Source of the DNA: an uncultured Fidelibacterota bacterium
GTDB taxonomy: Bacteria > Fidelibacterota > Marinisomatia > Marinisomatales > TCS55
NCBI GenBank assembly: GCA_913009735.1
Contig: CAJVYU010000001.1
Location: forward strand, 1-64,000
Length of the DNA: 64,000 bases
Direction of reading: 5' to 3'
The notes under the pieces: model-generated
The model's input: only the letters and a program-made list of their open reading frames with translations
Told to the model about the DNA's origin: nothing
The model's database searches: none
Part shown: positions 14,435 to 19,007 of the stretch, one piece after another
Numbering within the stretch: the first letter of the stretch is position 1
How the letters are laid out: each line of letters starts with the position of its first letter
Made by a program: the position numbers and the translations under genes

Positions 14435-15511
14435 ATGAAAAGACTTATGAAAGGAAACGAAGCACTGGCTGAAGCAGCCATTCGCGCCGGTATCAAAGGG
14501 TATTTCGGTTATCCCATCACTCCTCAATCAGAATTATTGGAATATATGTCCGTCCACTTAAAGAACCGGGGCGGTGTTTTTATCCAGGCGGAAAGTGAAC
14601 TGGCTGCCATCAATATGGTTTATGGGGCTGCCGGATGCGGTGTCCGCGTCATGACCAGCACCAGCTCTCCCGGGTTTAGTTTGATGCAAGAGGGAATATC
14701 ATACATTGCCTGCGCTGAGTTACCGTGTTTACTGGTTAATGTTGTCCGCGGAGGACCGGGGCTTGGCACTATTCAACCGTCCCAGGGGGATTATTTTCAA
14801 GCGGTGAAAGGCGGTGGTCATGGCGATTACAAGATGATTGTATTAGCCCCGAACAGCGTTCAGGAAATGGCTGATCATGTATATTTAGGTGCGGATCTGG
14901 CTGATATCTACAGAATTCCCGTAACCATTCTTGCCGATGGCGCATTGGGGCAAATGATGGAACCAATTGAATTTCCGGAATATGATATTGAAAAACATAC
15001 GATTGATCATTCGGCTTGGGCTACCCGCGGGCGCATCAACGGAAAACGACACGTCATTACTTCTTTGTATATGAAACCTGAAGAAATGGAGGAAATCAAC
15101 AAAGGACTTCAGAAAAAATATAGAGATATTGAAGAAAAAGAAATACGGTTTGAATCCATTCAAACAAAAGATGCCGATATAATTATTGTTGCCTTTGGAT
15201 TGGTTTCCCGGATTGCCCATAAAACTATTGAATTAGCACGGGAGGAAGGAATTAAAGTCGGGCTGTTTAGGCCCATTACATTATTCCCGTTCCCCAGTCG
15301 TCAACTCCAGGCACTCTCAAAAAAGACTGATTTGATACTAACGGTCGAAATGAATTCAGGTCAGATGCTGGAAGATGTAAAGCTCGCAGTGAATGGACAA
15401 ACACCTGTTGCGTTTTATGGTCGTATGGGAGGTGTTATACCTCAACCGGAAGAAATCCTTAAAGTATTAAAAGAAAAACAAAATCAATTATCTTTAAGAA
15501 AGAAAGTGTAA
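14435..15511 (+). CDS. vorB: 2-oxoacid:ferredoxin oxidoreductase alpha subunit (VorB-like)
   Basis: 358 residues. The pyrimidine-binding domain begins KGNEALAEAAIRAG, with the GYPITPQSELLEYM motif and the conserved TSTSSPGFSLMQEG loop. A C-terminal domain II carries the glycine-rich FGLVSRIA segment. Closest by recall to VorB, the 2-oxoisovalerate (branched-chain) ferredoxin oxidoreductase alpha subunit, but 2-oxoglutarate enzymes (KorA) share these motifs. Presence of Ptb and Buk downstream favours branched-chain or short-chain acyl-CoA products. Its TAA overlaps the beta-subunit ATG by one base. Confidence 0.9.
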   Translation: MKRLMKGNEALAEAAIRAGIKGYFGYPITPQSELLEYMSVHLKNRGGVFIQAESELAAINMVYGAAGCGVRVMTSTSSPGFSLMQEGISYIACAELPCLLVNVVRGGPGLGTIQPSQGDYFQAVKGGGHGDYKMIVLAPNSVQEMADHVYLGADLADIYRIPVTILADGALGQMMEPIEFPEYDIEKHTIDHSAWATRGRINGKRHVITSLYMKPEEMEEINKGLQKKYRDIEEKEIRFESIQTKDADIIIVAFGLVSRIAHKTIELAREEGIKVGLFRPITLFPFPSRQLQALSKKTDLILTVEMNSGQMLEDVKLAVNGQTPVAFYGRMGGVIPQPEEILKVLKEKQNQLSLRKKV

Positions 15512-16302
15512 TGAAAGATTTTACAGAAGGAATTCAATGTGATTATTTAGACACAATGGACATGGTTTGGGAGCGTCCACCTACGCTGTTAGATACACCA
15601 ATGCACTATTGCCCGGGGTGTAGTCATTCCGTTGTACACAGACTCCTTTTGGAAGTCATTCAAGAACTTGATATTCAGGATAAAACCATCGGTGTTGCCC
15701 CCGTGGGTTGTTCTGTATTTGCCTATAATTATATGGATATTGATATGCAGCAAGCCGCTCACGGACGAGCCACGGCGGTTGCTACCGGTATAAAACGGGT
15801 ACTTCCCGATCGAATTGTTTTTACATACCAGGGGGATGGCGATTTAGCCGCTATAGGGACAGCGGAGACTATTCATACCGTCAATCGCGGCGAAAATATC
15901 GTTATCATTTTTATAAACAATGGAATTTACGGAATGACCGGTGGTCAAATGGCCCCGACAACTCTTGAAGGGTCTGTTACTTCCACAACCTCCGAAGGAA
16001 GAAATATATCCCTCCATGGTTTTCCCATTAAAATTGCCGATATGATCGCATTATTACCTGGTGCATATTACGTTACCCGGCAATCCGTAACCTCTGCCAA
16101 AGCAGTACGTAAAACAAAAAAAGCACTACAAAAAGCTTTTACAAATCAAATTGAAAATAAAGGCGGAGTTAGTTTTGTAGAAGTTGTCAGCAATTGTCCG
16201 TCGGGATGGAAAATGACGCCTCTTGCTTCCAATGAATGGATTGACGAAACAATCATAAAATATTACCCGCTTGGAGACATTAAGGTCCCGGAAAAAGGTT
16301 AA
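15511..16302 (+). CDS. 2-oxoacid:ferredoxin oxidoreductase beta subunit (TPP-binding)
   Basis: 263 residues. The thiamine-pyrophosphate motif GDGDLAAIG...NN is present (GDGDLAAIGTAETIH, then NNGIYGMTGGQ). YCPGCSHSVVHRLL supplies two cysteines and VGCSVFAYNY a further one; these plus a late NCPSGW are the usual 4Fe-4S ligands near TPP. This is the catalytic subunit that decarboxylates the 2-oxoacid. The N-terminal 30 residues before YCPGC extend slightly beyond typical Kor/Vor proteins. It is coupled to both neighbours (1-base overlap upstream, ATG of the gamma subunit 1 base after its stop). Confidence 0.92.
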   Translation: MKDFTEGIQCDYLDTMDMVWERPPTLLDTPMHYCPGCSHSVVHRLLLEVIQELDIQDKTIGVAPVGCSVFAYNYMDIDMQQAAHGRATAVATGIKRVLPDRIVFTYQGDGDLAAIGTAETIHTVNRGENIVIIFINNGIYGMTGGQMAPTTLEGSVTSTTSEGRNISLHGFPIKIADMIALLPGAYYVTRQSVTSAKAVRKTKKALQKAFTNQIENKGGVSFVEVVSNCPSGWKMTPLASNEWIDETIIKYYPLGDIKVPEKG

Positions 16303-16303
16303 T

Positions 16304-16855
16304 ATGAAAAGGGAAACTCTCATAGCAGGTTTTGGCGGACAAGGTGTTTTATCCATGGGGATGACATTAGCTTATGCCGGCATGATTGAAGGGAAAAATG
16401 TTTCTTGGATGCCAAGCTATGGTCCGGAGATACGCGGAGGCACAGCCAACTGCACTATTATTATTTCTGATGAAAAAATCAGTTCACCTATTATTAATGT
16501 GTTTGATTCAATTATCATTTTGAACCAACCCTCAATGGACAAATTTGAATCAGCTGTTAAAACGAATGGTCAAATTTTATACGAAGCAAACAATGTTATC
16601 AATCCGCCTACACGCGATGATGTGAATATTATAAGCATTCCGGCAAACAAAGAAGCTCTTAAAATGGGACAAAAAAAAGTGATGAACATGATTGTCCTCG
16701 GTGCATATTTAGGACTGAATCCTGTGTTGAAACCTGAATCAATCATGGAAGGAATTAAAAAAGTTTTACCCGAAAGGCATCATAACCTTTTACCCGTTAA
16801 TAAGAAAGCTCTTGAATTCGGATTATCTTTAATTCATTCAAAATCACTTTCATAA
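16304..16855 (+). CDS. 2-oxoacid:ferredoxin oxidoreductase gamma subunit
   Basis: 183 residues. GFGGQGVLSMGMTLAYAG is the conserved glycine-rich start of the gamma (CoA-binding-side) domain, and SWMPSYGPEIRGGTANC is the family signature. I start it at the ATG at 16304 (AAGG upstream), not the upstream in-frame ATG at 16271 that runs inside the beta subunit. With the preceding three genes it makes the complete four-subunit OFOR. It is followed after 12 bases by the half-ferritin gene. Confidence 0.92.
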   Translation: MKRETLIAGFGGQGVLSMGMTLAYAGMIEGKNVSWMPSYGPEIRGGTANCTIIISDEKISSPIINVFDSIIILNQPSMDKFESAVKTNGQILYEANNVINPPTRDDVNIISIPANKEALKMGQKKVMNMIVLGAYLGLNPVLKPESIMEGIKKVLPERHHNLLPVNKKALEFGLSLIHSKSLS

Positions 16856-16867
16856 AAGGCAATAAGG

Positions 16868-17125
16868 ATGGGAACAAACAATCAAAATCAATTTGATACT
16901 ATTGAAGACATTTTGAATTATGCCATTGCTGAAGAGAAGGATGCTTACTTCTTCTATAAAAATTCAGCCAATAAAATGACAGATCCTGATTTGAAAAAGT
17001 TTCTTCTGGCCTTAGCTAAAATGGAAATGGAACACTATAACATTCTCAAAAAAAAGTTAGAAGAATGTAAAGCTAATTCATTCTGCTGTCATGCTATTAT
17101 GTCTTCATTTCATGAAGAAGAATAA
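16868..17125 (+). CDS. Half-ferritin (rubrerythrin-like, two-helix) protein
   Basis: Only 85 residues. The helix E-D-I-L-N-Y-A-I-A-E-E-K-D-A-Y-F-F-Y and a second helix with EMEHYNIL (ExxH iron ligands) form one half of a rubrerythrin/ferritin-like four-helix bundle; a full bundle would need dimerisation. The tail carries CCH and then acidic residues. There is no rubredoxin domain. It sits 12 bases after the OFOR gamma gene and just before butyrate kinase, so it is co-transcribed. A role in protecting the oxygen-sensitive OFOR clusters (peroxide or iron handling) is an inference. Encapsulated-ferritin-type proteins have a similar two-helix size, but no encapsulin gene is in the window. Confidence 0.75.
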   Translation: MGTNNQNQFDTIEDILNYAIAEEKDAYFFYKNSANKMTDPDLKKFLLALAKMEMEHYNILKKKLEECKANSFCCHAIMSSFHEEE

Positions 17126-17145
17126 CCGGGAGGTGTGGATTCTTT

Positions 17146-18180
17146 ATTCTTACGATAAATCCCGGTTCTACTTCAACCGAGATTGGATATTTCAAAAACA
17201 ATACATGTCTCATCCAAGAGACCTTCCCCCATTCTATTCATAATTCCCGGATGAGCTTTCAACAGCAAGTAACGTCACTGCATAATGACATTAAACCGTT
17301 TTTGGGTCAACTGAATACTTTTGACGCAATCGCATCCCGGGGAGGGCCGCTTAAACCTTTACCCGGAGGTGTATACAAAATAAATAAAGCCATGATTAGA
17401 GATTACCAAAATCAAACATATTCAAAACATCCCTCTAACCTTGGTGCTATATTGGCAAATAAATTATCAAAAGAATTCTCTGTTCCGGCCTATATCGTTG
17501 ATCCGGTTTCCGTAGATGAAATGATTCCAAAAGCAAAAATTTCCGGAGTGCCAACCATTGAAAGAAAAAGTCGCAGTCATGCCCTGAATATCAAATTCTG
17601 TGTCTACAAAGCTTCTACAGAAAATAATATCCCGATTGAAAAATCAAATTTTATTGTAGCTCATTTGGGAGGTGGATTTTCAATTGCAGCTGTTAAACGT
17701 GGACGTATTATAGATGTAAATGATGCCTTGCTGGGAATGGGTCCGTTTTCAATCGAGAGAGCGGGTGCCTTACCCTTGTCAGGTTTAATCGATTTAATAT
17801 ATGATAATAGTATATCTAAGGAAGAGCTGACAGAATTATTATCAAAAAACAGCGGACTGAAAGGATATCTTGGAACTAATAATTTTAAAGAAATTGAAAA
17901 GAGGCTGAACGAGAAAGATGTTCAACTAATTTATGAAGCGATGATTTATCAAATCCAAAAAGAAATCGGTGCCATGTTTGCCGCTTTAAATGGTTGTGTT
18001 GATGCGTGTATTTTCACCGGCGGCCTGGCTAAATCCCATCGGCTGATAAATAATTTATTATCAAATTTATGTTTTATTGATCAAATTATAATTTATCCCG
18101 GAAGTTTTGAACTTGACGCTTTGGCCAATGGGGTTTATCGCGTTATGTCTGGACAATTAAACCAAAAGGAATATACATGA
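17146..18180 (+). CDS. buk: Butyrate kinase, apparent ATT start
   Basis: Acetokinase-family enzyme making carboxylate plus ATP from acyl phosphate. In frame upstream of the first ATG (17251) the sequence reads ILTINPGSTSTEIGYF, the conserved phosphate-binding strand of butyrate kinases, and the frame is open back to 17116. No ATG, GTG or TTG occurs there. The best start is ATT at 17146, 12 bases after GGGAGG. That gives 344 residues, near the usual 355; starting at 17251 would delete the nucleotide-binding motif. Further motifs are SRGGPLKP, HLGGGFSIAAV, GMGPFSIERAG and FTGGLA. It overlaps ptb by 4 bases (ATGA). Confidence 0.88.
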   Translation: MLTINPGSTSTEIGYFKNNTCLIQETFPHSIHNSRMSFQQQVTSLHNDIKPFLGQLNTFDAIASRGGPLKPLPGGVYKINKAMIRDYQNQTYSKHPSNLGAILANKLSKEFSVPAYIVDPVSVDEMIPKAKISGVPTIERKSRSHALNIKFCVYKASTENNIPIEKSNFIVAHLGGGFSIAAVKRGRIIDVNDALLGMGPFSIERAGALPLSGLIDLIYDNSISKEELTELLSKNSGLKGYLGTNNFKEIEKRLNEKDVQLIYEAMIYQIQKEIGAMFAALNGCVDACIFTGGLAKSHRLINNLLSNLCFIDQIIIYPGSFELDALANGVYRVMSGQLNQKEYT

Positions 18181-19007
18181 TTAAACATTTTCGAGAAATT
18201 TACACAATGATGAGAGGTTTTGGACCGGCAAGAATGGCCGTTGTCAATCCTCAACAAGAATATTTACAATATGTCCTGGACAAAACAGAACAAAAAGAAA
18301 TAATTGAACCTCTTGTATTTCTAAATGATGATCCTGTTATTGCTGCTATAGAGGCCGTTGAAGCTGTTGCATCAGGAAAAGCCGATCTGCTGATGAAGGG
18401 GGATATTGATACGGCACAATTACTCAGTATAATCCTGAATAAAGATTATGGTTTACGCACTGACAAGCTTTTATCCCACGTTGCAGTGGTCGAAACGCCT
18501 TTTTACAATCGGCTTATGTTATGTTCTGATGGTGGTATAAACATCAAATTAAATGAGGAGACAGTACCCGCCATTGTAGAAAATGCATTATCATTAGCTT
18601 CATCTTTAGATATTCAACAACCCAACGTGGCTTTTTTGTCATTGGTAGAAACGATTACGCCCAAATTACCTTCTACAAAATTATGGGACAAGATGACAAA
18701 AAAGTATAAGTCTGATGAACGATTAATCGCAGAGGGTCCGCTGGCTCTGGATGTTGCATTGTCAACCAGAGCAGCAGAGAAAAAAGCTATCAAATCAAAC
18801 GTCTCCGGGAAAGCTGATATTTTTATCGGACCAACTATTACATCCACAAATATGATGGTAAAAGCGCTTATGATCGTTGGAGGCGCAAAAGGCGGCGGTC
18901 TTATTCTGGGCGCAAAATGCCCAATCGTTCTTTTGTCCCGCTCTGATTCCAGGCGCACTAAAATGAATTCCATTTCACTAGGTTTACTGGCTTTAAACAG
19001 GAAATAA
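18177..19007 (+). CDS. ptb: Phosphate butyryltransferase
   Basis: 276 residues, phosphate acetyl/butyryl transferase family. It converts acyl-CoA plus phosphate into acyl phosphate for butyrate kinase. Visible family segments: ADLLMKGDIDTAQLLSIIL, LLSHVAVVETP, SDGGINI and IFIGPTITSTNMMVKAL. It starts within the buk stop (ATGA overlap). Together with the upstream OFOR it completes a route from 2-oxoacid to free acid with one ATP by substrate-level phosphorylation. Branched-chain substrates are plausible because the OFOR is VorB-like; true butyrate formation would need other genes not in view. Confidence 0.93.
   Translation: MIKHFREIYTMMRGFGPARMAVVNPQQEYLQYVLDKTEQKEIIEPLVFLNDDPVIAAIEAVEAVASGKADLLMKGDIDTAQLLSIILNKDYGLRTDKLLSHVAVVETPFYNRLMLCSDGGINIKLNEETVPAIVENALSLASSLDIQQPNVAFLSLVETITPKLPSTKLWDKMTKKYKSDERLIAEGPLALDVALSTRAAEKKAIKSNVSGKADIFIGPTITSTNMMVKALMIVGGAKGGGLILGAKCPIVLLSRSDSRRTKMNSISLGLLALNRK

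Follow-up and report, generated by a model that had tools for sequence, protein, structure and literature searches.

The butyrate kinase gene (buk) described here lacks any canonical codon from which a complete enzyme could be translated, and comparison across 18 species makes it close to certain that a conserved non-canonical start is used in its place. In the window, by which we mean the whole stretch of 64,000 nucleotides that was analyzed, the leading candidate for this start is a UUC codon at position 17140, to which we give somewhat better than even odds on the basis of codon use and spacing. The fuller reading, in which the ordinary initiator tRNA decodes a natural UUC start that has persisted from the ancestor of the class onward and throttles a metabolic operon (buk and the coupled phosphate butyryltransferase gene, ptb) according to the stringency of initiation factor 3 (IF3), is more tentative, and we put its probability at about 0.45.

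The stop-to-stop frame of buk (17116-18180, forward strand) is open and reads RRITGRCGFFILTINPGSTST.... Its product matches the family profile TIGR02707 with 385.6 bits (cutoff, 289.1) over profile positions 2 to 350 of 351, and the frame is accordingly annotated as encoding a butyrate kinase of predicted activity. Reading of the frame from 17116 to 18180 found no ATG, GTG, or TTG 5' of the ATG at 17251, and the INPGSTST motif lies upstream of that ATG, both of which had been claimed in an earlier, sequence-only reading of this DNA. The same reading had held that only a non-canonical start gives a complete kinase and that a call at 17251 truncates it; this is supported by the alignment, as such a call would cost 37 codons counted from 17140, including N-P-G, which is invariant in all nine aligned sequences. 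A true start at 17251 was rejected because the part of the frame upstream of it is conserved. The buk frames are uninterrupted in relatives, and a plasmid search returned no match. The features of the region are collected in Table 1.

Table 1. Features in and around the buk start region (positions in the window)
Feature	Position	Strand	Basis or remark
2-Oxoacid:ferredoxin oxidoreductase genes (vorB-like, beta and gamma subunits), 5' of buk, same direction	14435..16855	+	Family search
Short ferritin-like protein, 5' of buk	16868..17125	+	Weak family matches, below cutoffs
Shine-Dalgarno (SD) sequence GGGAGGTG	17128..17135	+	Purine-rich SD-like stretch present in 18/18 species
Codon x, GGA; place of ATG in L108, L114, and L116	17137..17139	+	Alignment
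TTC, proposed start, 6 nt behind SD register	17140..17142	+	TTC 16, ATC 1, TTT 1 of 18; putative start role
buk coding sequence on the assumption of a TTC start, M-FILTINPGSTST..., with the TGA stop	17140..18180	+	Family profile, alignment
ATT, start codon of the sequence-only reading	17146..17148	+	ATT 9, ATA 8, TTT 1 (G182) of 18
First in-frame ATG of buk	17251..17253	+	Begin point for a gene caller limited to ATG/GTG/TTG
Phosphate butyryltransferase (ptb), 3' of buk; buk stop and ptb ATG overlap within ATGA	18177..19007	+	Family search

The products of buk and ptb are a pair of enzymes through which ATP is generated from acyl-CoA. The overlap between the buk stop codon and the ATG of the next gene is found in all 18 species that lack a canonical buk start, and the identity of this next gene as ptb was checked in five cases, in the window by family search and in four others by cross-hits. 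In a genome of the same genus (G001, locus L012, about 1417-1713), buk is present only as a remnant, its N-terminal part and middle missing right behind the ferritin-like gene, where an assembly fault is possible; ptb, 3' of this remnant, is an open frame of similar length.

The closest buk genes, as found by scanning genome contigs, belong to Candidatus Neomarinimicrobiota. At a threshold of E ≤ 1e-60, buk matches were obtained in 16 of 130 genomes of the order and in 82 of 245 genomes of the phylum. Start regions were read in 33 of the 82 matching genomes and at 80 loci kept of the 105 from the contig scan; a set of 113 loci yielded 109 placed frames (L050, L054, L069, and L073 were not placed) and, from them, 91 distinct rows, 18 without a canonical start and 73 with one. 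The 18 are the species of one Candidatus Neomarinimicrobiota clade, 13 in the order and 5 in another family of the class, and none of them has an in-frame ATG, GTG, or TTG between the SD sequence and NPG; in one (G042), a TTG occurs 26 codons before the N, 5' of the SD sequence. A canonical start is present in all 73 other placed distinct genes, 6 to 17 codons before the N of NPG (69 at 6 to 14 codons, four at 16 to 17).

In a tree of the 91 rows calculated with the N-terminal residues left out, the 18 start-less genes form one branch with 100/100 support, and they are under purifying selection, the dN/dS values of five pairs within the clade being 0.143, 0.131, 0.151, 0.154, and 0.208. One branch combined with purifying selection shows that the canonical start was lost once, in a common ancestor, and that the loss has persisted for long enough to saturate most synonymous sites. 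The sequence-only reading had proposed a look at the start codon in relatives and had named a sequencing error or indel as the alternative; because 18 species show the same layout, such an error is excluded, and the observation proves to have been correct and more general than its reader could know.

The start regions of the 18 species follow a single layout, SD - x - 17140 - 17143 - 17146 - Leu - x - Ile - NPG. Codon x, directly before 17140, is GGA, GCG, ATT, GAT, GTC, GCT, GTT, GCC, GAA, GAG, or ACT; it opens with a purine, three positions ahead of TTC, in all 18 (G in 15, A in 3), and the codon is otherwise free. Codon 17143 is TTT in 16 species and TTC in 2. Measured from the SD sequence, x lies at 2 to 4 nt, 17140 at 5 to 7 nt (17 species by script; G048 by eye, at 6 nt), and 17146 at 11 to 13 nt; the proposed codon thus lies at a usual distance behind a strong SD sequence. 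As a yardstick for spacing, we used 21 genes from these genomes that begin at a canonical ATG and have an SD match at least 5 nt long. Their spacing is 4 to 7 nt in 12 and 11 to 12 nt in 5, which favors 17140 over 17146, although not decisively. The distance to the N of NPG is 6 codons from 17140 and 4 codons from the ATT at 17146.

Codon use tells more than spacing about which codon starts. At 17140, 16 of 17 Phe codons are TTC, compared with 29 of 130 in eight other alignment columns with at least 14 Phe; with rows treated as independent, this excess gives a Fisher P value of 9e-9, and a binomial value of 1.4e-7 without three close relatives. Phe codons in the buk gene bodies are 185 TTT and 61 TTC, and the third base of 17140 is C in 17 of 18 species against a background of 1,077 of 6,141 (17.5%). 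The codons that follow vary like coding sequence (TTT/TTC, ATT/ATA, YTN), the choice between TTT and TTC at 17143 being ordinary. At 17146, ATC is never seen in the 18 and ATA is common, a weaker oddity than that of TTC at 17140. If 17140 is the start, the codon used would be near-cognate with U in second place throughout the clade (TTC 16, ATC 1, TTT 1).

Rare starts are not general in this lineage, yet buk is not alone. We inspected by eye 206 open reading frames (ORFs) with homologs in other stretches, together with 705 nonoverlapping ORFs from the window and 40 stretches, leaving aside unplaced frames (e.g., L154, L157, and L241); only buk, lpxA, and infC were plainly incomplete from canonical starts. 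In infC (L168-L186), the frame 5' of the anchor is devoid of a canonical codon in 17 of 19 genomes, and ATC or ATA, mostly ATC, stands 5 to 7 nt behind an SD sequence in 16 of the 19. In lpxA, ATG, GTG, and TTG are all absent 5' of IHPTA in 14 of 19 genomes; four genomes carry such a codon no nearer than 11 codons upstream, and G178 has a TTG close by; the start codon in most genomes is ATT or ATC. The lpxA frame of the window (30876-30085, minus strand) offers no canonical codon that could serve as its start and apparently begins at an ATC (30858-30856).

The second-best candidate is the ATT at 17146, which the sequence-only reading had taken as the start of buk. The GGGAGG (17128-17133) that it described, followed after 12 bases by ATT (17146-17148), is present, and its call of a non-canonical start holds, but the ATT itself, with its spacing of 11 to 13 nt and its replacement by TTT in G182, is probably not the codon used. 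Translation from ATT, or ATA in relatives, would be a rare start of a type already known, unusually far from its SD sequence, with TTCTTT serving as a fixed spacer; ATT or ATA occupies 17146 in 17 of the 18 species, AUH starts serve infC and lpxA in these same genomes, and the 5 of 21 canonical genes with spacing of 11 to 12 nt set a precedent for the distance. However, ATC is never found at 17146 although infC uses mostly ATC, the spacing exceeds the 5 to 7 nt of infC, and only three codons would remain between the start and the N of NPG, where all 73 canonical relatives have at least five. Since the fixation of TTC TTT would also be left without a reason, we consider a start at 17146 unlikely. 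Less probable again is initiation at codon x (GGA at 17137), a nearly codon-independent start after which Phe-Phe-Ile-Leu would be ordinary coding sequence. Three relatives (L108, L114, and L116) do carry ATG at x with similar SD spacing, the purine at its first base is shared by all 18 species, and residue 2 of Thermotoga maritima butyrate kinase 2 (Buk2) is Phe; against this, x is filled by eleven different codons, none of them common to the whole clade, it lies only 2 to 4 nt behind the SD sequence, and the start would have to be indifferent to its codon while the TTC bias at 17140 went unexplained.

It is very improbable that ribosomes begin at a canonical codon elsewhere, out of frame or within the upstream gene, and reach the kinase frame by a frameshift or by stop readthrough. 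Although a GTG or TTG in another frame lies 5 nt before 17140 in 8 of 18 species, another 8-of-18 count, that of species with no ATG, GTG, or TTG in any frame from -24 to +9, speaks against a frameshift; similarly, the upstream stop is a TAG in the kinase frame in four species, but upstream stops fall in differing frames between species, and in G059 the upstream gene and buk are some 75 nt apart. Neither event is favored by RNA structure, as no conserved fold was found at the buk start (z scores of -1.7 to 1.3 against shuffles of single letters). An artifact, whether a sequencing error, a pseudogene, or a true start at 17251, has a negligible chance of explaining the data. The buk remnant in G001, of the same genus, would fit it, but the layout common to 18 species, the dN/dS values of 0.13 to 0.21, the invariant N-P-G, and the uninterrupted frames do not, and the 18 species and dN/dS rule out a sequencing error or pseudogene.

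Initiation at the UUC of 17140 (AUC or UUU in two species), the reading that we prefer, would give a product beginning M-F-I-L-T-I-N-P-G-S-T-S-T. The strong SD sequence 5 to 7 nt upstream would position the 30S subunit so that its P site holds codon 17140, which the ordinary initiator tRNA would read while pairing poorly. A special initiator tRNA was considered and rejected: all 35 tRNA genes found in G000, a genome 91% complete, were examined, and only one is of the initiator type, with anticodon CAU. As proposed by analogy with infC and sigR, IF3 would discard most initiation complexes formed at 17140 and the few that pass would yield the kinase, so that the codon would act like a throttle. 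Both enzymes may be throttled in this way, since the next ATG (in the window, the ptb start) shares bases with the buk stop; ribosomes that terminate on buk would reinitiate at the overlapping ATG, and weak initiation at buk would set the levels of the pair.

We know of no natural UUC start, and a literature search for UUC and UUU start codons found UUC in vitro only. Also against UUC, T. maritima Buk2 has Phe aligned with 17140; together with the ATG at x in L108, L114, and L116, this makes a start at x, with Phe kept for its side chain, conceivable. In E. coli in vitro experiments (PMC7907450), no 30S complex formed on UUC when IF3 was present, and UUC is in that setting a very poor start, which weighs against it here; without IF3, 70S complexes formed on UUC at 22.9 per s, versus 25.6 per s for AUG. 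A rate this near to that of AUG in the absence of IF3 suggests that a UUC start would be almost wholly governed by IF3.

A metabolic gene with a conserved non-canonical start across a class would widen the rule for such starts and would suggest that start-codon stringency is a means of adjusting how much enzyme is made; a UUC codon, if it is the one used, would also add to the starts known in nature. For annotation, gene callers limited to ATG, GTG, and TTG would truncate the butyrate kinase in this clade's genomes and here probably LpxA and IF3 as well.

To our knowledge, conserved starts beyond AUG, GUG, and UUG are few, with infC and sigR as examples. The infC start is AUU in E. coli and AUC in Streptomyces. 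It resembles that of buk in being non-canonical, preceded by a strong SD sequence, and long kept; it differs in that its codon is AUH and its product represses its own start, whereas buk, with UUC as its proposed codon, encodes a metabolic kinase. In Streptomyces sigR, according to PMC5472188, the start is GTC in 32 of the 34 species counted and GTT in the remaining 2, behind the ribosome-binding site AGGAGGTG, and this GUC start is repressed by IF3 and coupled to rsrA. On that account, sigR shares with buk an NUC (rarely NUU) codon, a strong ribosome-binding site, conservation, and overlap coupling to the next gene; sigR, however, is a sigma factor of one genus with a start proven by mutation, whereas buk is metabolic and class-wide, its start being deduced by comparison only. 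Within its own family, the gene can be compared with T. maritima Buk2 (PDB 1saz and 1x9j), likewise a full-length member of TIGR02707 with the ASKHA motif NPGSTST, and it departs from the family in its start, which in the 73 placed canonical relatives is ATG, GTG, or TTG.
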